A stretch of 64,000 nt of DNA. It comes from Vibrio taketomensis. GTDB lineage: Bacteria; Pseudomonadota; Gammaproteobacteria; Enterobacterales; Vibrionaceae. Both the position numbers and the translations under genes were made by a program. Below, piece by piece: positions 4,326 to 57,769 of this stretch. The stretch spans positions 2,232,001-2,296,000 of the forward strand of contig NZ_AP019649.1 of assembly GCF_009938165.1 (NCBI RefSeq). The letters run 5' to 3'. The first letter of the stretch is position 1. Each line of letters starts with the position of its first letter. The notes below the pieces were generated by a model. The model was not told the origin of the DNA. It did not search any database and was given only the letters and a program-made list of their open reading frames with translations.

Positions 4326-5438
4326 TTAGAAGTAGTACTCTGCACCTAGAAGGATGTTAGTACCGTCACCTTCTTCTTTATCACCTAGCATGTCGTAGTT
4401 ACGTACGTCCATGTATAGGTAAGTGCTTGGTAGTAGGTAACCTAGACGACCTGTGATAGCGCGAGAGTCATCGTTGTCACCATTTTTAGATTCACCAGTA
4501 GCAGCATAACCTGCTTTTAGAACCCATTGACCATTGATTACATACTGAGCTGTTGCAGAATAAGCATCTTGCTCATTGTTTGTTAGGTCATTTTGCATGT
4601 TTTTGTATGCAGCTGTCAGTGTAATATCACCTAGGAATAGGCTACCACCGACGATTGTGTAACTTACATCACCTGCTTTTTCAGTCTTAGCTGCAGAACC
4701 TGCAACACTTCCGTAACAAGTTGGATCAGCTAAATCCGCTTCAGATTCCTTATCACATGTAGGTAAGAAACCGAACGAAGGATCTGTTGCTGCTACTTTC
4801 TTGTCGTATTCATTTTGAGTGTAGTGACCGATGTGTGCACTGAATACACTGTTGGTGTACGATGCTGCAGCACTGAATACAACTGCTTCGTTAGTTTCAG
4901 CCATACCGCTTACAGTTGCTTGGAAGTTGAAACCATTCCAAGTTGCTGAATCAAAGCGAATTACGTCGTTTGCACGATCTTGGTAACTAGCTTTGATAGC
5001 GTTGTGCCAATCAAATACGTTACCTAGACCTGGGTTTGAGTGTGGCCAGTCAACGTAGTTGTAAGCAGCTACAAGTTGACGACCGATTTTTAGTTGACCA
5101 ACGCCGTCAAACTCTAGACCTAGCCATGTATCACGACCACCGAACGCGCCTTGACCGTCGCCATTCGCGCCACGGTTCCATGCGTTACCAGTTTCGATTT
5201 GGTAGATGAAGTTCGGTGCAAAGTTATCAAACTCAACATTACCACGGAAACCGATACGTGATTCGATCTCAACTAGAGTATTGTTATCGCCAGCTTCAGG
5301 GTTGTTGATTTGAAGGCTACCAGCTGCTTGTCCGTAAAGCTGTAGTGCTTGGCCGTTTAGTTCTACTGCTGCGTTTGCAGAACCAGCAGCGAATGCTACT
5401 GCTGCACACACTAGAGTGCGTTTGAAAAATTTGTCCAT
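4326..5438 (-). CDS. Outer-membrane general porin (Gram-negative porin family)
   Basis: 370 residues: signal peptide (cleavage after A23), then a beta-barrel sequence with alternating hydrophobic/polar strands ending in the outer-membrane signature ..LLGAEYYF with a terminal Phe. The GGRDTWLGLEF and LKIGRQLVAAY stretches (about 100-126) are typical of strand 3/loop 3 of trimeric porins. Two cysteines (C228 and C241) lie in a predicted surface loop, unusual for porins. In Vibrio cholerae the porin next to ligA is, from memory, VC0972, reported as chitin/GlcNAc-responsive; two CRP-like sites upstream fit carbon control. Which solute it prefers cannot be read from the sequence. Confidence 0.88.
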   Translation of the reverse strand: MDKFFKRTLVCAAVAFAAGSANAAVELNGQALQLYGQAAGSLQINNPEAGDNNTLVEIESRIGFRGNVEFDNFAPNFIYQIETGNAWNRGANGDGQGAFGGRDTWLGLEFDGVGQLKIGRQLVAAYNYVDWPHSNPGLGNVFDWHNAIKASYQDRANDVIRFDSATWNGFNFQATVSGMAETNEAVVFSAAASYTNSVFSAHIGHYTQNEYDKKVAATDPSFGFLPTCDKESEADLADPTCYGSVAGSAAKTEKAGDVSYTIVGGSLFLGDITLTAAYKNMQNDLTNNEQDAYSATAQYVINGQWVLKAGYAATGESKNGDNDDSRAITGRLGYLLPSTYLYMDVRNYDMLGDKEEGDGTNILLGAEYYF

Positions 5439-5996: not shown

Positions 5997-8075
<2,079 letters not shown>

Positions 8076-8121: not shown

Positions 8122-9057
8122 TTAGCTGGCTTTGCGAGCTTTATACTCTTTGACTTGCGTTTTGTATCCATCAATACGATTTGGTGTAAGCAAATTACGT
8201 GCATCATCTAACACGCGGCCACCGAGATCATCCGCGATTTGCTGCGCGGTTTGAAGCATCAACTTAAAGTTTTGCTCTTCATCACCATAGCATGGCAGCA
8301 TCATAAAGAACGAAATGCCTTTGGTGGTAAATTCCGCAGGGTCATTATGCTCTAAGGTGCCTGGATGCATCATATTCGCCACACTAAAGAGAACTTTACC
8401 CGTTCCAGATAAATCTGTGTGACGATGGAAAATATTCATCTCACCGTAAACCAGATCATGCTGTTGCATGCTATCAAATAGCTTGGTGCCCACAAATGGC
8501 TCTTCACCAGCGCAATGCACATTAATAATGATGACCTCTGGCTCGGGTTCAGCCTCTACCTGAGGCTCAGGCGCGACAACCTCTAGTTCTTCGTCAGGCT
8601 TAACGTCTTGCTCAACAGGCTCTGGCTTTGTCTCGGCTTGAACCATTGTAGGCGAAGAAACTGGCTCTAGATCGATTTCGATACGATCAAGTGCGGAAAT
8701 TGAAGGAATATTATCCAAAGGTTCTTCCACTTTTTTTGCCGCTGGCGTTTCTGGCTCTTCTTGTACTGGGTAATCAGAAACCAGCGGATCACCCATTAAA
8801 GGATCGTCATTAAGCTCTTCATCACGGAAAGTCGATGGTTTGGTATCTTTACGAATGATTTCAAAATCGTCTTCAGGAGCAAAAGCGCGTTCATTTGAGC
8901 GATCAGAAATTTCATCGCCTTCCACCGCTAACTTCCCTAATGGCTTGTCACTAAATTTTGACTTGCCTTCTTTTTTACTCGTCCATAGACCGTGGAACAA
9001 CAACGCGGCGATGGCAAGGGCGCCAACCACGATAAGTACGAATCGCAATTCCTGCAT
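8122..9057 (-). CDS. zipA: Cell division protein ZipA
   Basis: 311 residues. One N-terminal membrane helix (about 5-25, outside-in) is followed by a charged linker, an acidic Pro/Glu-rich stretch (about 95-170) and the compact C-terminal FtsZ-binding domain starting about 173 ([20 protein letters not shown]). It tethers the FtsZ ring to the inner membrane and is essential in E. coli. It is divergent from cysZ with a 215-bp shared upstream region. Confidence 0.95.
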
Positions 9058-13800: not shown

Positions 13801-14286
13801 ATGGGTCTGTTTGATAAACTTAAGAAGCTAGTATCTGATGACAGCGCAGATGTTGGTGCTATCGAAATCGTAAACATTGAAGATGTGCCAGATGTAGTGT
13901 TCGCAGAGAAAATCGTTGGTGACGGTATTGCTATCAAACCAACTGGCGACAAGATGGTAGCTCCTGTAAACGGTACTATCGGTAAAATCTTCGAAACTAA
14001 CCACGCATTCTCTATCGAATCTGACGACGGCGTTGAGCTATTCGTTCACTTCGGTATCGACACTGTTGAACTTAAAGGCGAAGGCTTCAAACGTATCGCT
14101 GAAGAAGGCCAAACAGTTAAAGCTGGTGACACTGTTATCGAATTCGATCTAGCACTTCTTGAAGAAAAAGCTAAGTCAACTCTAACTCCTGTTGTTATCT
14201 CTAACATGGACGAAATCAAAGAGCTAAACAAGCTTTCTGGTTCAGTAACTGTTGGTGAAACGCCAGTACTACGAATCACTAAGTAA
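13801..14286 (+). CDS. crr: PTS glucose-specific EIIA (Crr) with an 8-residue internal deletion
   Basis: 161 residues where E. coli and Vibrio homologues have 169. EIIA-Glc takes phosphate from HPr and passes it to EIIBC; its dephosphorylated form blocks sugar permeases, and its phosphorylated form is tied to adenylate cyclase. The phosphorylation site H83 ([11 protein letters not shown]) and partner H68 correspond to E. coli His90 and His75 and are intact. But after residues AIEI the sequence jumps to [10 protein letters not shown]: the conserved IAPLSGEI that opens the EIIA domain is missing. A GAAATC hexamer sits exactly at the joint (13864-13869), as expected for deletion of 24 bp between two GAAATC copies. 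Whether the protein still folds is unknown. Confidence 0.93.
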
Positions 14287-29350: not shown

Positions 29351-30471
29351 TGGATTTTGCCCCGATAAATGGCCAGAACCGCTCGCTATTTGATCGCATC
29401 CACATCGACTTGCCACTACTACTTGGCATCATGGTGTTAATGGGATTCGGTCTAATCGTGATGTACAGTGCCAGTGGGCAAAGTCTTGCAATGATGGACC
29501 GCCAAGCAATGCGGATGGTTCTTGCCCTTGGGGTCATGGTGCTCTTGGCACAAATTCCCCCCAGAACCTATGAAAGTTTGGCGCCAATCATGTTTGTTGT
29601 CGGCGTGCTATTACTGCTTGGGGTGCTGTTTTTCGGCGAAATATCAAAAGGCGCACAACGGTGGTTGAACCTTGGTATTGTGCGCTTCCAGCCCTCAGAG
29701 CTCTTAAAACTTGCGGTGCCACTGATGGTGGCGCGTTATATAGGTCGCCGTTCTTTACCCGCCTCTTTTCAAACCATTGTCGCGTCATTGATAATGGTAT
29801 TAGTTCCCACTATTCTCATCGCTAAACAACCCGACCTCGGCACCTCAATCCTCATTGCAGCTTCTGGGATTTTCGTTATCTTCCTCGCGGGTATCAGCTG
29901 GAAAATCATTTTCTCCGCCATCTTTGTTGCCGCAAGCTTTGTCCCAATATTGTGGATATTCTTGATGCGTGAGTATCAAAAAGTGCGTGTGCGTACTCTA
30001 TTTGATCCAGAATCCGATCCGCTAGGGGCTGGCTATCACATCATTCAAAGCAAAATCGCGATTGGTTCAGGTGGTGTCTCTGGTAAAGGCTGGTTGCAAG
30101 GCACTCAATCACAGTTAGAGTTCTTACCTGAGCGGCATACTGACTTTATCTTTGCCGTAATTGCTGAAGAGTGGGGACTGATTGGCATTCTGATTCTACT
30201 GAGTTTGTATCTCTTTATCATTGGCCGAGGCTTATTGCTCGCCAGTCGTGCACAAACGCCGTTTGGTCGTATGATGGCTGGCAGTATTGTATTGAGCTTT
30301 TTTGTCTACGTTTTTGTGAACATTGGCATGGTTAGTGGTATTCTTCCCGTCGTGGGCGTACCACTACCTCTGATTAGCTATGGCGGAACCTCAATGGTCA
30401 CCCTGATGGCTGGCTTCGGTATTTTGATGTCTATTCACACTCATAAAAAAGCGTTTTCAAAGGCAAATTAA
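29350..30471 (+). CDS. mrdB: Rod-shape protein RodA (SEDS glycosyltransferase)
   Basis: 373 residues with about ten membrane helices. SEDS peptidoglycan polymerase paired with PBP2. The family stretches [36 protein letters not shown] and [12 protein letters not shown] are present. Overlaps mrdA by one base at the start and rlpA by one base at the end, a tightly coupled trio. Confidence 0.96.
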
Positions 30472-31313
30472 TGCAAACATTTTACAAAGTTGCCAGCTTA
30501 GCATTGCTAAGTAGTGTTATTGTTGGCTGTTCCTCTACGCCTACAGAACCAGAGCCAGTAGCTCCATCAACTCCTCCTCTTTCTCAATCGGATCGCTATC
30601 AAGAAGAGCGTTACGATCTCAAAGACGACACTGCCCCAGAAAAACCAATGTCGGTGGAGCACGTTGAAGACGCAATGCCTCAATATGAACCTTACAGTTT
30701 GGGTGGTACTCGTGATTACACCGTTCGCGGTAAACGCTACCACATCATTAAAGACCCTAAAGGCTTCAAACAAAAAGGCCAAGCATCTTGGTATGGTAAA
30801 AAATTCCATGGTCATCAAACTTCTATCGGTGAAGTGTATGATATGTATTCCATGTCCGCTGCCCATAAAGAGCTACCTCTACCAAGCTATGTAAAGGTAA
30901 CAAACCTTGGCAATGGGAAGAGCGCCATTGTACGCGTCAATGACCGCGGACCATTTCATGATGGACGTATTATCGATTTGAGTTTCGCTGCAGCAAAGAA
31001 GCTGGATGTGATAAAAACGGGTGTCGCCAATGTTGAAATTGAAGTGATCACCGTTGATAAACCGAACTCTCAAACAAAAAAACAAGCACTGCCAAAGTAC
31101 CAAATTCAGGTCGCTTCTTCGTCAAATAAAGAAAGAGTTGAAACTTTAGCGAACGATCTTGGTCAAAAGCTCTCGGTAGACAGCTTTGTAAACTCAGAAA
31201 ATGAGATTCATCGTGTAATTTTAGGCCCATTTGATGACTATGAGCTGACGCAAAAAACGTTAGAGCAAGTTAAACTACTGGGCTATTCGAGTGCCTTCGT
31301 AAGAAAAATTTAG
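30471..31313 (+). CDS. rlpA: Septal ring lytic transglycosylase lipoprotein RlpA
   Basis: 280 residues. Lipobox IVGC (C20), a Pro/Glu-rich linker, a double-psi beta-barrel domain (about 100-190: GQASWYGKKFHG and RVNDRGPFHDGRIIDLSFAAA) and a C-terminal SPOR domain (about 208-280) that binds denuded glycan at the septum. The catalytic D in NDRGPF is kept. Confidence 0.94.
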   Translation: MQTFYKVASLALLSSVIVGCSSTPTEPEPVAPSTPPLSQSDRYQEERYDLKDDTAPEKPMSVEHVEDAMPQYEPYSLGGTRDYTVRGKRYHIIKDPKGFKQKGQASWYGKKFHGHQTSIGEVYDMYSMSAAHKELPLPSYVKVTNLGNGKSAIVRVNDRGPFHDGRIIDLSFAAAKKLDVIKTGVANVEIEVITVDKPNSQTKKQALPKYQIQVASSSNKERVETLANDLGQKLSVDSFVNSENEIHRVILGPFDDYELTQKTLEQVKLLGYSSAFVRKI

Positions 31314-38997: not shown

Positions 38998-40032
38998 ATG
39001 ATTAAGATTAATCAGGTAAATAAGGTGTTCTATCAAGGCAAACAAGCCATTAATGCCCTGAAAGATATTAACCTTCATATCGCACAAGGAACGATATTTG
39101 GTGTTATCGGCGCATCAGGCGCTGGTAAAAGTACGCTGATCCGCTGTGTAAACATGCTTGAAGCGCCAACCAGTGGCGAAATCATTGTTGATGGTGTCGA
39201 CCTAACTAAATTGAGCAAAGCCCAGCTGAGCGAAGCGCGCCGCAATATTGGCATGATCTTCCAGCATTTTAATCTGCTTTTATCACGCACGGTATTCGAT
39301 AACGTTGCTCTGCCACTTGAGCTCGCCGGTAAAGAGAAGAATCGGGTTCAAGCTAAAGTTACTGAGTTACTGCAACTGGTTGGTCTTGCGGATAAACACG
39401 AAAGTTACCCATCGAATTTAAGCGGTGGTCAAAAGCAACGTGTGGCTATCGCTCGCGCTCTAGCTTGCGATCCAAAAGTATTACTATGTGATGAGGCCAC
39501 CAGCGCTCTAGATCCTGCAACAACGCAATCTATTTTAGAGCTACTACGTGAAATCAACCGCAAACTGAAAATCACTATTTTGCTGATCACACACGAAATG
39601 GATGTGGTGAAAAGCATCTGTCACGAAGTGGCGATTATCGGTGGTGGTGAATTGGTTGAAAAAGGCACTGTGGGTGAAATTTTTGCCCACCCTAAAACGC
39701 AACTTGCCCATAACTTTATTCGCTCAACCTTGGATCTTTCGATTCCAGAAGATTATCAAGTACGTCTGCAGCCAACTCGTGTTGAAAGCAGTTACCCATT
39801 AGTGCGTCTTGAATTTACCGGAGCTACGGTCGATGCGCCTCTGATGAGTCAAATCTCTCGAAAATACAACATCGACGTCAACATTCTTAGTTCCGATCTC
39901 GATTACGCCGGTGGCGTGAAATTCGGCATGATGGTAGCAGAGTTGTTCGGCACTGAAGATGATGCAAATAACGCGATTACGTTTTTAAGCGATAACAATG
40001 TAAAAGTAGAGGTGCTTGGCTATGTCCTTTAA
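38998..40032 (+). CDS. metN: Methionine ABC transporter ATPase MetN
   Basis: 344 residues. Walker [10 protein letters not shown], signature LSGGQKQR, Walker [13 protein letters not shown], switch His in LLITHEMD. The C-terminal NIL/ACT-like domain (about 265-344) gives allosteric inhibition by methionine. Overlaps metI by 11 bp. First gene of metNIQ. Confidence 0.96.
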
Positions 40033-40698
40033 AACCATTACTGATTGGCTAAACCTCAATTCAGACTTACTGCTTAGCGCAACATGGGAAACGGTTTACA
40101 TGGTTGCCGTTGCCGGCATCGTCGGCTTCGCGATTGGTATTCCTCTCGGTGTGATTCTGCATACGACCAAAAAAGGCGGCTTACTGGAAAACTCACGCCT
40201 AAACCGTACGCTTGGTGCCATCGTCAATATCGGTCGCTCAGTGCCATTTTTAGTCTTGATGGTCGCGATAATTCCAGTCACCAAACTCTTGGTCGGGACA
40301 TTTATCGGCACTACGGCAGCGATTGTTCCACTCACGATTGGGGCGATTCCGTTTGTTGCTCGCTTAATCGAAGGTGCGCTGCTTGAAGTCCCAACGGGCT
40401 TGGTTGAAGCCGCGCAATCAATGGGCGCGACGCCACTACAAATTGTCACCAAAGTGCTACTACCAGAAGCGTTACCAACCATTGTTAACTCTGTAACGAT
40501 TACACTGGTTACTCTCGTCAGCTATTCAGCAATGGCTGGTACAGTCGGTGGCGGCGGTTTAGGAGATGTTGCTATCCGCTATGGCTTCCATCGCTACGAC
40601 GTCATAATTATGGCGGTTACGGTGGTGATGCTGATTGTCCTAGTACAAATGATTCAATCTATCGGTGATGCCGTTGTTCGCCGTGTGATCATCGATAA
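40022..40698 (+). CDS. metI: Methionine ABC transporter permease MetI, stop codon lost
   Basis: Permease with five membrane helices and the EAA loop [23 protein letters not shown] (about 135-157). In the sequence as given, the frame does not stop: it reads through the metQ ribosome-binding site into metQ in frame, ending at 41530. Adding one T in GTGATC near 40686 restores VRRVDHR followed by TAA at 40696-40698, giving 225 residues, the usual Vibrio length. A one-base deletion, real or technical, explains this better than a designed fusion. Start ATG 40022 overlaps metN. Confidence 0.88.
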
Positions 40699-40720
40699 AA
40701 GTTTTTATAAGGAGATTGTT

Positions 40721-41530
40721 ATGAAATTTAATGTAAAGGGTTTATTCGCTATTATCGCTGCGGCATCAGCACTTGTACTGACTGGTTGTGGTGAAAAGGA
40801 AGTCGATAACAGCAAAATCAAAGTCGGTGTTATTGCCGGTGCAGAAGAACAAGTGGCAGAGATTGCCGCGAAAGTCGCGAAAGAGAAATATGGTCTTGAT
40901 GTGGAGCTAGTGACATTCACTGACTACGTAACGCCAAATGCGGCATTGGACGATGGTTCTATCGATGTGAATGCGTTCCAGCACAAACCATATCTAGATA
41001 AGCAAGTAAACGATCGCGGATACAAACTTGCGATTGCCGGTAACACCTTTGTTTACCCAATTGCAGGTTATTCTAAACAGGTTAAGTCTGTTGATGAGAT
41101 CCAAGATGGTGCTCGTATTGCCGTACCAAACGACCCGACTAACCTAGGCCGCTCACTGATACTACTTGAGCAACAAGGTCTTATCACTCTACGTGAAGGT
41201 TCAGGTCTTGAATCAACAGTTCGTGATATCGTCGCTAACCCGAAAAATATCGAAATCATCGAACTAGAAGCGCCTCAACTTCCTCGTTCTCTTGACGATG
41301 TGACGCTCGCCATCATCAACAACACATTCGCTAGCACGATTAACCTTGTACCTGAGCGTGATGGTGTTTTCGTTGAAGATAAAGAGTCACCATATGTGAA
41401 CTTAATCGTTGCCCGCGAGAACAATGTCGATAATGAAAATGTAAAAACGTTTGTGAAAGCATACCAAACAGACGAAGTTTACAATGCAGCTTCAGACATC
41501 TTTAAAGGCAGTGTGGTAAAAGGTTGGTAA
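40721..41530 (+). CDS. metQ: Methionine-binding lipoprotein MetQ
   Basis: 269 residues from the ATG at 40721, with AAGGAG 6 nt upstream. Lipobox VLTGC (about C23), then an NLPA-family periplasmic-binding fold with KVGVIAGAEEQVAE, NAFQHKPYLD and VPNDPTNLGRSL. It captures methionine for MetNI. In this sequence it is also the 3' part of the open metI frame. Confidence 0.94.
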   Translation: MKFNVKGLFAIIAAASALVLTGCGEKEVDNSKIKVGVIAGAEEQVAEIAAKVAKEKYGLDVELVTFTDYVTPNAALDDGSIDVNAFQHKPYLDKQVNDRGYKLAIAGNTFVYPIAGYSKQVKSVDEIQDGARIAVPNDPTNLGRSLILLEQQGLITLREGSGLESTVRDIVANPKNIEIIELEAPQLPRSLDDVTLAIINNTFASTINLVPERDGVFVEDKESPYVNLIVARENNVDNENVKTFVKAYQTDEVYNAASDIFKGSVVKGW

Positions 41531-41803: not shown

Positions 41804-41911
41804 ATAATAACTATCAAATAAAGATCAAGCGATATTTTGCCGTTACTTCCCTACTCACGCCCAATGATTAGTATGCTATCTTGTGGCAAAGATTTACCAC
41901 GAGATAATGGC

Positions 41912-42604
41912 ATGTATTCCATTGAGCCAATTGGCATCATTCAAAGCCCCTATAAAGAAAAGTTTGCCGTCCCTAGACAGCCACGGCTGGTACCCGCCGC
42001 CACTGCTAGAGTGAAGCTACAAGGTGCTATCAACTGCGCTGAAGCAATACGAGGCATTGAGCAATTTAGCCACGTTTGGCTGCTATTTTTGTTTGATCAA
42101 AACCTAGCTGCAGGCTGGAAGCCAACTGTACGCCCGCCACGTTTAGGCGGTAATGAGCGTATGGGTGTATTAGCGACTCGCTCTACCTTTCGCCCTAACG
42201 GCATTGGCATGTCTGCCGTGGAACTTAAAGGTATCAGTCAGCAAGGCGATCAATTTTATTTAGAGCTAGGCAGCGTTGATTTAGTCGATGGCACCTATTG
42301 TTGACATAAAACCCACATTCCATACTCCGACGCTATTGTTGACGCCAAAGGCGGCTACGCCGAAGCAGAGCCAGAAAAGGCAAGCGTGGTGTTTTTGCCT
42401 GCTGCCGTCAATAGCTTGAATCAACAAGCGAATAGCGAACAAATTCGCCAAGTTATCGAGCAAGTGCTGGCGCAAGACCCTCGCCCTGCGTACAAAAAGA
42501 ATAAGCCCGACAACAAAGAATATGCGGTTAATTTATTCAATTTGAACGTTAAATTCACCGTAAACGATAACTTAGTGTCTGTTACTGCGATTGAACGCTT
42601 TTGA
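41912..42604 (+). pseudogene. trmO: tRNA (adenine-N6)-methyltransferase TrmO (TsaA/YaeB), internally disrupted
   Basis: The family makes m6t6A37 in tRNA-Thr. The N-terminal beta-barrel is intact from MYSIEPIGIIQSPY through RSTFRPNGIG to ELGSVDLVDGT, then the frame reads YC-stop (TGA at 42302-42304). The same frame resumes after a few codons with IPYSDAIVDAKGGYAE and the complete C-terminal domain to 42604. Expected family text between them is about eight residues of the type PxVDIKPY; the DNA still spells ATTGTTGACATAAAACCC in a shifted frame. Two close deletions (two bases before, one base after) account for it. Start chosen at 41912 by homology. Confidence 0.83.
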
Positions 42605-44487: not shown

Positions 44488-44624
44488 ATTACCTAATTAC
44501 GGCTGTTTTGTTTAAATTTAATACTATTCGTTTTGCTTTCGACAAATAATATTTGCTGTCTTTCATTTCACAGATAACTGATATTTATGCCAATTTAAAA
44601 CATATTCATTCACGGACGATTAAG

Positions 44625-45653
44625 TTGAATTGGAAATCTATCTTAGGGGCACTCACCCTTACTTTCATGACTAGCCACGCCGTCGCTAAAACAGAGCTCA
44701 ATGTATATGCTTGGGGTGGCTATATTCCGACTGACGCCATCAAGCGCTTTGAACAGCAGCAGAATGTGGTGGTTAACTACTCGACATTTGAAAATAACGA
44801 GTCGATGTACACCAAAATGAAGCTAGTTAAAGGTCAAGGCTATGATGTGGTTTTTGCCTCTGCCTACTTTATCCAAAAGCTCGCTCGTGAAAACCTAGTC
44901 GCTAAATTGGATCATCAACTGCTACCCAACATGCATGACAGCATGGAGGGGTTACTGAATCAAGCACACGACCCTAACAACCAATACTCACTGCCCTACA
45001 TCTGGGGCATCACGGGAATAAGCTACAACTCCGCTTTTGTTGAGAAACCCCTGACCAAATGGGCAGATCTATGGAGCAGTGATTTTGAACAACAGGTGAT
45101 GCTGATTGATGATGTGCGTGATGTGTTTGGGATGACACTAAAAATGCTGGGCTATAGTGCCAACTCAACCAATCCTGATGAGATCGAACAGGCTTATCAA
45201 GCCTTAGTTCAACTACAAAACAATATCGTGGTGTACAACTCAGATGCGCCGCAAGTCCCCTATATCTCAGGCGAAGTGACCGCGGGAATGCAATGGAATG
45301 GTAATGCCTATCAAGGTATGTCAGAAATGCCCGAATTGGCTTACATCTTCCCTGAGGAAGGCCCTGTGATGTGGATGGACAATATGCTGATTTCGGCGGG
45401 AAGTACCAATCCCACCTTAGCCCATGCATTTATCAATCATATGTATACGCCACAAGTACAAGCAGAGATCGTACAAACGCTGGGTTATGCCTCTGCTACC
45501 AATGGCGGTAAAGCCCTATTACCGAACGAGCTAAAAAACAATGCGGTGATCTATCCAGCACAAAATTTGATTGCCAAAGGCGAGTTTACGGTTGAGGTTG
45601 ATGAAAAGACGCTTGCGCTATACCAGAGTTACTGGCAGCGATTAAGGCTTTAA
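44625..45653 (+). CDS. Orphan polyamine-binding protein (PotD/PotF type)
   Basis: 342 residues from a TTG at 44625 that yields a clean signal peptide (LNWKSILGALTLTFMTSHAVA). An ATG at 44553 is in frame but adds 24 polar residues before it. The mature protein is a periplasmic spermidine/putrescine-binding fold: ELNVYAWGGYIPTDAIKRFE, NNESMYTKMK, GYDVVFASAY, LPYIWGITGISYN and WMDNMLISAG. No potABC permease or ATPase gene is beside it, so it either feeds a distant transporter or acts as a sensor partner, as NspS-like proteins do. Confidence 0.85.
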   Translation: MNWKSILGALTLTFMTSHAVAKTELNVYAWGGYIPTDAIKRFEQQQNVVVNYSTFENNESMYTKMKLVKGQGYDVVFASAYFIQKLARENLVAKLDHQLLPNMHDSMEGLLNQAHDPNNQYSLPYIWGITGISYNSAFVEKPLTKWADLWSSDFEQQVMLIDDVRDVFGMTLKMLGYSANSTNPDEIEQAYQALVQLQNNIVVYNSDAPQVPYISGEVTAGMQWNGNAYQGMSEMPELAYIFPEEGPVMWMDNMLISAGSTNPTLAHAFINHMYTPQVQAEIVQTLGYASATNGGKALLPNELKNNAVIYPAQNLIAKGEFTVEVDEKTLALYQSYWQRLRL

Positions 45654-45702: not shown

Positions 45703-46548
45703 TTATTTAAGTGGCTGTGTCGGCGCTTGACTTGCAATTTTTTTGGGTGCGAATGGCACATCCACCAGCGCTTGCTCGTTACCATCAACCAACTCACCAA
45801 AATGAAAAATTCCGAATTCACCCGGCTTCATTCGATGCCAAGTTTCGTTATCGGTCAATGGCTGAGTTGCCACGATTGACACGATATCATTCGGAGTGGT
45901 TTCTTCTTGAAAATTGATCGTCACATCTTCATCAATCAACGATGCTTGGCCAAACGGCGCACGACGAGTGATCCAATAAAGATGGTTGGTACAATATGTC
46001 ATCACATACTCGCCATCTGAGAGCAGCATGTTAAACACACCTTTTTCACGCAACTGGTCGCAACATTGAGCAATAAATCGGAACACACCCACCATATCCT
46101 GAGGCGGTTCAGGGTAACGCTCTTCAAGCTGCTTCAATATCCAGCAAAACGAAAGTTCACTGTCGGTTTGCCCTACAGGACGAAAACGTCCCGTGACTAA
46201 ATCTTGGTAATCGGTTAATTGACCATTATGAGCAAAGGTCCAGTAACGTCCCCAAAGTTCACGTGTAAACGGATGGGTATTTTCTAGATTCACCCCGCCA
46301 CGATTAGCTTGGCGTATATGACTGATCACCGCCAAACTTTTGATTGGGTAGTTCTGTACCAATTCTGCAATCTTAGAGTCGCAACTTGGATTGGGATCTT
46401 TAAAGGTACGAAAGCCTTTGCCTTCGTAAAAGGTAATGCCCCAGCCATCACGATGCGGCCCGGTATTGCCGCCTCGCTGCATCAAGCCAGTAAAACTAAA
46501 ACAAATATCGGTTGGAACATTCGCGCTCATGCCGAGCAATTCACACAT
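45703..46548 (-). CDS. yafJ: Class II glutamine amidotransferase YafJ
   Basis: 281 residues. The N-terminal nucleophile is Cys2 (MCELLGMSANVPTD), and GGNTGPHRDGWGITFY, HIRQANRG and FAHNGQL are family stretches of Ntn hydrolases of the GATase type. Substrate and partner are unknown. Downstream of gmhA on the same strand, the order also found in E. coli. Confidence 0.9.
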   Translation of the reverse strand: MCELLGMSANVPTDICFSFTGLMQRGGNTGPHRDGWGITFYEGKGFRTFKDPNPSCDSKIAELVQNYPIKSLAVISHIRQANRGGVNLENTHPFTRELWGRYWTFAHNGQLTDYQDLVTGRFRPVGQTDSELSFCWILKQLEERYPEPPQDMVGVFRFIAQCCDQLREKGVFNMLLSDGEYVMTYCTNHLYWITRRAPFGQASLIDEDVTINFQEETTPNDIVSIVATQPLTDNETWHRMKPGEFGIFHFGELVDGNEQALVDVPFAPKKIASQAPTQPLK

Positions 46549-46629
46549 GGCTTATGGTACTCCCTCTTTTCAATTTGCAGCCTCAAAGCACAAAGCTGCA
46601 AATGTAAACCGTGTGGTAGCAAACGGAGT

Positions 46630-47208
46630 TTACTTCTCCATTTCCTTTTCAATCAATTGGATCACAATATGGATGATCTTGATATGTACTTCTTGAATGC
46701 GGTCAGCATAACCAAAGTGAGGCACACGAATTTCGATATCCGCGCAACCCGCCATTTTGCCACCATCTTTACCTGTTAGGGCGATGGTTTTCATGCCTTT
46801 GGCTTTCGCAGCTTCAATGGCTTTGAGAATATTGCCTGAATTACCTGAAGTAGATAAACCAAATAGAACATCACCTTTCGAACCAACCGCTTCTACGTAG
46901 CGAGAGAAGACAAAATCGTAACCAAAGTCATTGCTTACACAAGAAAGGTGGCTTGGATCTGAAATAGCAATACCAGGGTAACCTGGACGATTTTCGCGAT
47001 AACGACCCGTTAACTCTTCGGCAAAGTGCATTGAGTCACAATGAGAACCACCGTTACCACAAGACAGTACTTTACCGCCCTGTTTGAACGAGTCAGCGAT
47101 CATTTTTGCTGCCGCTTCAATCTGCGCAATATTGTGATCATCACTTAAGAACTTGTTCAGTACTTCAGCCGCTTCCATCAGCTCGCTTTTAATCAAATCC
47201 TGGTACAT
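46630..47208 (-). CDS. gmhA: Phosphoheptose isomerase GmhA
   Basis: 192 residues, same length as E. coli. It converts sedoheptulose 7-phosphate to heptose 7-phosphate, the first step of ADP-heptose synthesis. SIS fold with [18 protein letters not shown] and [11 protein letters not shown]; zinc ligands H and E in HFAEE are kept. Divergent from fadE across a 295-bp gap. Confidence 0.96.
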
Positions 47209-51316: not shown

Positions 51317-52057
51317 CTATTGACGCCAAAGGCAGCTTCCGTTTTTCTCAACAATATCTAAGCGACTATTATGCGCTTCTATTTCATCGGCAGTAGCGCG
51401 TAAAACCTTTAGCGCTTTTCGCTGGCTAGAGGCACGTTTTATCGACTCACCTCCCACGCCTTCGCTGCTGCTTCCTGCGTTGAATTGAAGTGACGTTTGG
51501 CCACCCGTCATTAATAGATAGACGTCAGCTAGAATCTCCGCATCGAGCAATGCCCCGTGGAGAGTACGATGCGAGTTATCAATGCCGTAACGGTCACACA
51601 ACACATCAAGGTTGTTACGCTTACCCGGGAAGATTTTCTTCGCCATGGCAAGCGTATCGGTCACTTTACAATATTGCTCGGTTTTACCTATTTGCGGATC
51701 AAGCTTATCAAATTCATAGTCCATAAAGCCGACGTCGAAGGGCGCGTTATGCGCGACCAGTTCTGCGCCTTTAATAAAGTCGAGAAACTCTTGATGCACT
51801 TCTTGATATTGCGGCTTATCACGCAAAAACTCGTCGGTGATACCGTGAACTTCAACCGCTTCAGCCTGAATCTCGCGATCCGGCTTGATGTAGACGTGAA
51901 AATGACGCCCGGTCAATTTGCGGTCAATGATCTCTACCGCACCGATTTCGACAATGCGATGGCCGAGATAGTGTGGACCACCATCTTGGTTCATACCCGT
52001 GGTTTCCGTATCGAGAACCACAATACGATGCTGATTAGAATTGTTACTGGTATTCAT
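51317..52057 (-). CDS. dnaQ: DNA polymerase III epsilon subunit DnaQ
   Basis: 246 residues. Proofreading 3'-5' exonuclease of the DEDDh type: D16 and E18 (LDTETTG), D in HNAPFDVGF, and H/D in HRTLHGALLDAEIL. The C-terminal segment binds the alpha subunit (dnaE is at 60372). Divergent from rnhA with 57 bp between, the classic arrangement. Confidence 0.96.
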   Translation of the reverse strand: MNTSNNSNQHRIVVLDTETTGMNQDGGPHYLGHRIVEIGAVEIIDRKLTGRHFHVYIKPDREIQAEAVEVHGITDEFLRDKPQYQEVHQEFLDFIKGAELVAHNAPFDVGFMDYEFDKLDPQIGKTEQYCKVTDTLAMAKKIFPGKRNNLDVLCDRYGIDNSHRTLHGALLDAEILADVYLLMTGGQTSLQFNAGSSSEGVGGESIKRASSQRKALKVLRATADEIEAHNSRLDIVEKNGSCLWRQ

Positions 52058-52114
52058 TACAAACTATGTGTCAGACTATAGATGATTATGTGCAAACCTC
52101 TATAGTATCAAATC

Positions 52115-56433: not shown

Positions 56434-57282
56434 TCACTTTAGCAAACGAAAAGAAACTTCCATTGGATTATGATCAGAGGCGTCAGAGATTGGCGCCTTT
56501 GCTTTTTCTAGCACTAACCCACGATAAAACAAATGATCAAGTGGTAAACCATTAATAAACTGTTTGCGATGATCAGGCGTGTAAACCGCTTCTTTTACTC
56601 CTAACTTATCCAACAATGACTTCATCACTTGCAAACGCTCTCGACTCCAAGAATTGAAATCCCCAGCCACAATCATTGGCCCATTGTGTTTTGCCAGAGC
56701 TGTCGCTAACTGATCCAACTGGCGATAATACTCTTCAGTACCATAAGTAAAGTTAATCGCGTGAATATTCACTACGGCAAGAATTTGCTGATTGGATAAC
56801 GCGTAAGTGGCATAAATCGCTGATTTAGGAAGACGCAGCCAAGGCTCCATTTCGGTATATGCACATGCCTGTTTGGGTAATTGATGGGCAAGATTGAGCA
56901 CCCCTGCCGATGTATCAAAAGCTTTAAAGGCATCGACGATATTGCCGCTCCATTTGCCGTTATCGATCCAAGTTCGCAACGCGGGTGTCAGACTGGCTTC
57001 TTGTAGCAGTAATAGTTGTTTATCTTTCGCTAGGTGCGTCAAGGCAGTCTGCCAATCACTACGATTTTGTTTGTAGATATTCCACACCAACACGTTCAAT
57101 TTGCCATCATTGTCGATCGCTACAGGCTTGGCGTTGTTGTAACAAGCGAGCTCTGGAGTATTCACCTGCGCAGAAAGCGTGGAGACTTGAGCTTGTTCTG
57201 GGAGAGTAAATATGGTGTGGTAAGCAAGCAAGGTGGCTGCGCCAATAATGATTGGCAAACCGATAAGAACTTTTTTCTTCAT
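56434..57282 (-). CDS. yafD: Endonuclease/exonuclease/phosphatase family protein YafD
   Basis: 282 residues. A signal-anchor helix at the N-terminus (about 5-22), then an EEP fold: VLVWNIYKQNR, LLLLQEASLT, VAGDFNSWS, and the C-terminal SDASDHNPMEVSF. The metal and catalytic residues N, E, D, N, D, H are all kept. It may act on a phosphodiester or lipid in the periplasm; real substrate unknown. Converges with the Yip1 gene, one base apart. Confidence 0.85.
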   Translation of the reverse strand: MKKKVLIGLPIIIGAATLLAYHTIFTLPEQAQVSTLSAQVNTPELACYNNAKPVAIDNDGKLNVLVWNIYKQNRSDWQTALTHLAKDKQLLLLQEASLTPALRTWIDNGKWSGNIVDAFKAFDTSAGVLNLAHQLPKQACAYTEMEPWLRLPKSAIYATYALSNQQILAVVNIHAINFTYGTEEYYRQLDQLATALAKHNGPMIVAGDFNSWSRERLQVMKSLLDKLGVKEAVYTPDHRKQFINGLPLDHLFYRGLVLEKAKAPISDASDHNPMEVSFRLLK

Positions 57283-57384
57283 TGTGTGGATTTCTCTGAT
57301 CCTATTTTTATTCAGCTTATCTTAGACTCATCCTTTTGCCTAGGTTACCACTCTCCACGAGCCTCAGGGCTCTTAAAGAGCATG

Positions 57385-57414
57385 GATAAAACAAAAGAGC
57401 CATACGGCTCTTTT
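57385..57414 (-). terminator. Terminator of glnB
   Basis: Minus strand AAAAGAGCC-n4-GGCTCTTTT followed by GTTTTATC, 8 bp after the glnB stop. Confidence 0.85.
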
Positions 57415-57421
57415 ATTGATA

Positions 57422-57769
<348 letters not shown>

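Follow-up and report, generated by a model that had tools for sequence, protein, structure and literature searches.

The closest described systems are the EIIA-Glc proteins, the products of crr, of Vibrio and Escherichia coli (NF006962, PF00358). In V. cholerae, according to one study, several EIIBC proteins lack an EIIA of their own and depend on EIIA-Glc, a deletion mutant transports no glucose, and removal of the N-terminal helix separates the functions of the protein (PMC6123446). Excerpts of a V. vulnificus study report that a crr deletion leaves two exopolysaccharide clusters at basal expression in glucose medium and biofilm formation at its basal level in mannose medium (PMC9040800). 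Selection against crr has a precedent in laboratory evolution of E. coli on glycerol, for which 10 mutations of the gene are described, every one of them within the EIIA type 1 domain and 70% predicted to be destabilizing (PMC7382830).

The crr gene described here lies in a stretch of 64,000 nucleotides of a Vibrio taketomensis genome (the window; G000:C1:2232001-2296000). It shares with the Vibrio and E. coli genes the sequence from end to end, the place after ptsI, both histidines, and the residues of the N-terminal helix, but its EIIA domain lacks eight residues where it begins, including the proline and glycine of the first half-motif. Damage to the EIIA type 1 domain is a feature in common with the glycerol-selected E. 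coli alleles (PMC7382830); however, those arose in another organism, and the passages retrieved from that paper contain no 24-bp deletion. The Delta16 form of V. cholerae EIIA-Glc is likewise shortened and, in the excerpts seen, has a known partial phenotype, but it lacks the N-terminal membrane helix (PMC6123446), whereas the present protein retains the helix residues and has lost the beginning of the domain.

Results

The crr reading frame is open over 161 codons without an internal stop, compared to 169 codons in relatives. Phmmer aligned its product end to end with two PDB chains, 3our_B (annotated as a PTS IIA component and presumably from Vibrio) and 4jbw_M (annotated as glucose-specific IIA and presumably from E. 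coli), each time with one eight-residue gap after G-A-I-E. The translation and these alignments bear out the initial annotation, which had put the difference at exactly 8 residues, or 24 bp, and the single GAAATC that it had placed at the joint was read there as well. The conserved residues that are gone are I-I-A-P-L-S-G-E, or an equal loss in another register; because E-I stands on both sides, the sequence would allow the missing piece to be written shifted by one or two residues.

Table 1. Positions in the window of ptsH, ptsI, crr, and features of crr.
Feature	Position	Strand	Basis or remark
ptsH (HPr), 85 aa	11478..11735	+	open ORF
ptsI (EI), 574 aa	11871..13595	+	upstream of crr; full-length match 98% in G111 and G122
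crr, EIIA-Glc with eight-residue internal loss	13801..14286	+	ORF translation, phmmer, Pfam and NCBIfam profile matches
Codons 1-16, N-terminal amphipathic helix segment	13801..13848	+	residues identical to homologue P0002; side-by-side sequence
GAAATC at deletion joint, 24 bp fewer than relatives here	13864..13869	+	sequence, relatives' crr DNA
Codon of H68, conserved histidine	14002..14004	+	invariant in 48-row alignment A1
Codon of H83, conserved histidine	14047..14049	+	invariant in 48-row alignment A1

Against the crr equivalog model NF006962 the product scores 273.5 bits, above the curated threshold of 212, and against PTS_EIIA_1 (PF00358) 153.1 bits (cut-off, 27.2). The PF00358 match begins at profile position 10 of 127, compared to position 2 in all six relatives tested, in agreement with the earlier statement that the EIIA type 1 domain opens with the lost piece. 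The domain is incomplete, with one of its two A-P-x-x-G half-motifs, the first, absent. Since this half-motif is absent and the Pfam match starts only at position 10, we file the gene as a damaged or altered crr allele and not as a proven working EIIA-Glc. H68 and H83, which had been said to remain, are both kept (Table 1), and we take H83 to be the histidine that carries the phosphate. E-I-V-N-I is also still present.

We take the fold of EIIA-Glc to be a duplicated hybrid motif and, from known structures, the missing piece to be a strand. The segment with its flanks, E-I-I-A-P-L-S-G-E-I-V-N-I, aligns with residues 59-71 of the full-length protein (score of 28, with no significance computed), and this likeness makes the missing segment the first of two similar half-motifs. 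Across the 47 homologues that were aligned (taken from the 120 listed below; P0089 is not one of them), its P26 and G29 do not vary. An AlphaFold2 model of the short protein, built with 48 sequences, had a mean pLDDT of 56.0 and a pTM of 0.50, with residues 14-46 below 50, a low score that could come from the deletion or from the shallow alignment.

The gene sits after the frames that we take to be ptsH and ptsI, the latter name being in line with an E. coli record, in which ptsI is likewise followed by crr. A profile search of the genome found one EIIA type 1 domain (PF00358) and 11 EIIB domains (PF00367). A backup EIIA was considered and rejected, there being one PF00358 domain in this genome and one in each of the six relatives tested. 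Eight of the 11 EIIBs were scanned; four scored above curated cut-offs (GlcNAc, sucrose, glucose, and alpha-glucoside types) and four below, one of the latter (L043) having been read from an inner ATG, as 429 residues of a 521-codon frame. Two EIIB domains, at G000:C2:527620-527715 and G000:C2:1280527-1280634, are each encoded in a short open frame, of 123 and 107 aa, respectively, and are perhaps stand-alone EIIB proteins. Class I adenylate cyclase has one match in the genome, in a frame of 850 aa with no stop. A visibly broken adenylate cyclase was therefore rejected, and because this frame is open, the regulation of the enzyme could be affected.

The distribution of the short form was assessed with the junction pattern I-E-I-V-x-I-E-D-V-P, written in degenerate codons, in genome sets with one genome per species. 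The pattern occurred once among 227 Vibrio genomes and once among 329 Vibrionaceae genomes, both times in the genome under study; a short form with other residues at the joint would escape it, as the pattern needs those residues there. A crr search matched all 227 Vibrio genomes, one of them (G148) only at 3.3e-31. Where crr DNA was read directly, in 29 relatives, the gene has 169 codons and keeps the segment in 29/29; these are the best-scoring loci of 226 and therefore a nonrandom sample, the other 197 genomes being covered by the junction pattern, with crr length uncounted. In a wider species collection, in a scan that may leave out the genome itself, the pattern matched five times, in frames of 187 to 543 aa, on contigs that we assign, from the classes in their record names, to Alphaproteobacteria and Bacillota. 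None of the five translations is crr, and these matches were rejected as short forms of the gene.

A search of 5.8 billion proteins returned 2595 homologues, 120 of which were listed. The segment motif is found in 119 of the 120, and the remaining one, P0089, holds the segment with D for G, so that none of the 120 listed of the 2595 lacks the segment; none is a 161-aa protein, although with clustering at 90% identity short forms could hide inside clusters. A 186-bp query from the 5' part of crr matched 5375 of 5426 E. coli genomes and did not match 51; all 5377 records showed at least 95% identity over at least 80% of the query, and an even sample of 60 rows was 100% covered. No recurrence of the deletion was seen among these 60 of the 5377 records, which leaves room for single deletion records in the whole. 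Because the junction pattern occurs in this genome only, among 227 Vibrio and 329 Vibrionaceae genomes, the eight-residue difference looks like a derived loss in this lineage. A recurrent hotspot or repeat switch was looked for in the same sets and not seen. Our literature search on the deletion, or on crr mutants of its kind, found no description of it in the parts of papers returned, and the passages found in the structure literature do not mention the missing piece.

ZipA of the window (8122-9057) shares 97% identity with a database protein that bears the name of V. taketomensis, and the match after it reaches 68%; such a protein name does not prove the strain. The species nearest by ZipA are represented by genomes G111, G132, G122, and G050, and since the best other Vibrio match, in G111, reaches 73%, no second member of the species was seen in the 227-genome set. 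The two hexamers, spaced 24 bp apart, agree with each other in 7 of the 29 relatives (GAAATC in six, GAAATT in one). Among the four nearest, GAAATC occurs twice in G050 only, with GAGATC...GAAATC in G111, G132, and G122; E. coli crr has GAGATC twice. A loss of exactly 24 bp, flanked on either side by E-I codons, is consistent with short repeats having misaligned, and slippage between two GAAATC copies is plausible. The initial annotation had proposed a 24-bp loss between two GAAATC copies. The loss in this lineage is supported by the junction pattern; the two copies are not, the hexamer pair being identical in 7 of 29 relatives and, of the nearest four, in one, and the GAAATC repeat origin is a good guess rather than a result.

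Outside the gap, one residue of the protein is not seen in any of the 29 relatives, and other single relatives show 0 to 2 such residues. Compared to the four nearest relatives, the gene outside the gap has 4 to 5 amino-acid-changing and 22 to 30 silent codons, as against 0 to 1 and 5 to 22 among those four, a comparison made without a significance test. On these sequences the remainder of crr would have undergone no clear decay and at most slight relaxation. Because of this lack of clear decay, the allele is probably young, although the codon counts could also mean that the allele is older and has been slightly relaxed for longer.

Sequence quality was judged from the genome (two contigs, 4.3 Mb, 99.97% complete) and from the neighbors of crr. 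The window has 61 ORFs of at least 120 aa; eight antisense-overlapping ones were dropped, and 53 were compared with the 74 kb around crr of G111 and G122, three having no match in G111 and one none in G122. In each comparison crr is the sole gene with residues missing among those at least 80% identical. Less alike genes have gaps as well: up to 9 residues in ZipA, up to 11 at one place in the porin-like gene, and 5 in 30471-31313 (79% to G122). The relatives' DNA has one to four stops under the match of 5997-8075, of 41837-42304, and of the antisense-overlapping frames 46309-46779, 51557-52081, and 57034-57480.

Discussion

Our preferred reading, to which we give a probability of roughly 55%, is that this strain carries a real in-frame deletion of 24 bp in crr, which likely arose recently by misalignment at short repeats and yields an EIIA-Glc without its first A-P-x-x-G half-motif that would be unstable or poorly active. 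The gene would then most likely be an allele of this strain whose function is lost or only partial. The change is probably a harmful mutation that the strain carries and not a new system. A small in-frame deletion is an ordinary kind of event, here in an unusually conserved and central gene. If the short EIIA-Glc is unstable or poorly active, phosphate would flow poorly from HPr to EIIBs without an EIIA of their own, namely, those of the glucose, GlcNAc, sucrose, and alpha-glucoside types; inducer exclusion may be weakened, and the stimulus of phospho-EIIA-Glc to adenylate cyclase may be reduced. For glucose uptake, inducer exclusion, and cAMP, changes such as the initial annotation had suggested may reasonably be expected by analogy with V. 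cholerae (PMC6123446). The allele may have been acquired or favored during culture.

It is also possible, with a distinctly lower likelihood, that a real deletion has left the protein functional, either fully or with some partners only, for example with phosphotransfer kept and transporter activation or inducer exclusion changed. Partial function is conceivable because the frame, both histidines, the N-terminal helix, and E-I-V-N-I are kept; the protein has only one residue unseen in the 29 relatives, and the separation of functions by helix removal in V. cholerae, in the excerpts of that work (PMC6123446), points the same way. Moreover, total loss should be costly in nature, since the sole EIIA type 1 domain found stands beside 11 EIIB domains. 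However, the segment is present in all 120 listed homologues, its P26 and G29 are invariant in the 47 that were aligned, and what is lost is one of two similar half-motifs.

Less likely again, and in our view improbable, is that every member of the species (V. taketomensis or a near relative) carries the short form, which would then be old and tolerated. Papers name two isolates of V. taketomensis, C4III282 and C4III291. The slightly raised ratio of changing to silent codons would agree with this, as would the ZipA comparison, in which the best other Vibrio genome stands at 73% and no second member of the species was seen. Nevertheless, every residue outside the gap, bar one, is found in at least 1 of the 29 relatives, and there is no 161-aa protein among the 120 listed homologues, the latter a weak argument given the 90% clustering. 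A still longer shot is a minimal EIIA-Glc, fixed in nature and able to work although the first half-motif is gone, possibly with transport and regulation uncoupled; one species' whole glucose-family PTS would then rest on a protein that is broken by the standards of textbook structure.

We consider it quite improbable that the short form is an error of the assembly or a mutation confined to the culture that was sequenced. In favor of this reading, the short form comes from one genome, and the joining of metI and metQ in one frame, with two single-base gaps compared to relatives, could be a sequence error. Against it, the genome is 99.97% complete in two contigs, and bar metI-metQ no frameshift was seen in any gene well matched in G111 or G122; a clean in-frame 24-bp loss is also unusual as a sequencing error.

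Should the allele be dead, tests of sugar use, biofilm, and catabolite control in this strain would mislead on the species, and sugar tests made for taxonomy could give wrong results. If the protein works, a piece kept in the 120 listed homologues would be dispensable. Either way, no second EIIA type 1 domain was found in the genome to cover for it.

Three other places in the window are recorded here under presumed gene names. At 40016-41530 (+), one frame of 504 aa joins a presumably MetI-like permease to a presumably MetQ-like lipoprotein, which are separate frames in G111 and G122; compared to these two genomes the window has two single-base gaps nearby, and the join is either a translational fusion or a sequence error. 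A frame at 44553-45653 (+; 366 aa), which we take to encode a PotD-like polyamine-binding protein, has no match at an E value of 1e-15 in the 74 kb of G111 or G122. At 35 to 38%, the identity of the presumed porin-like protein at 4326-5438 (-) to its best matches in the G111 and G122 segments of 74 kb falls far below that of most of its neighbors.
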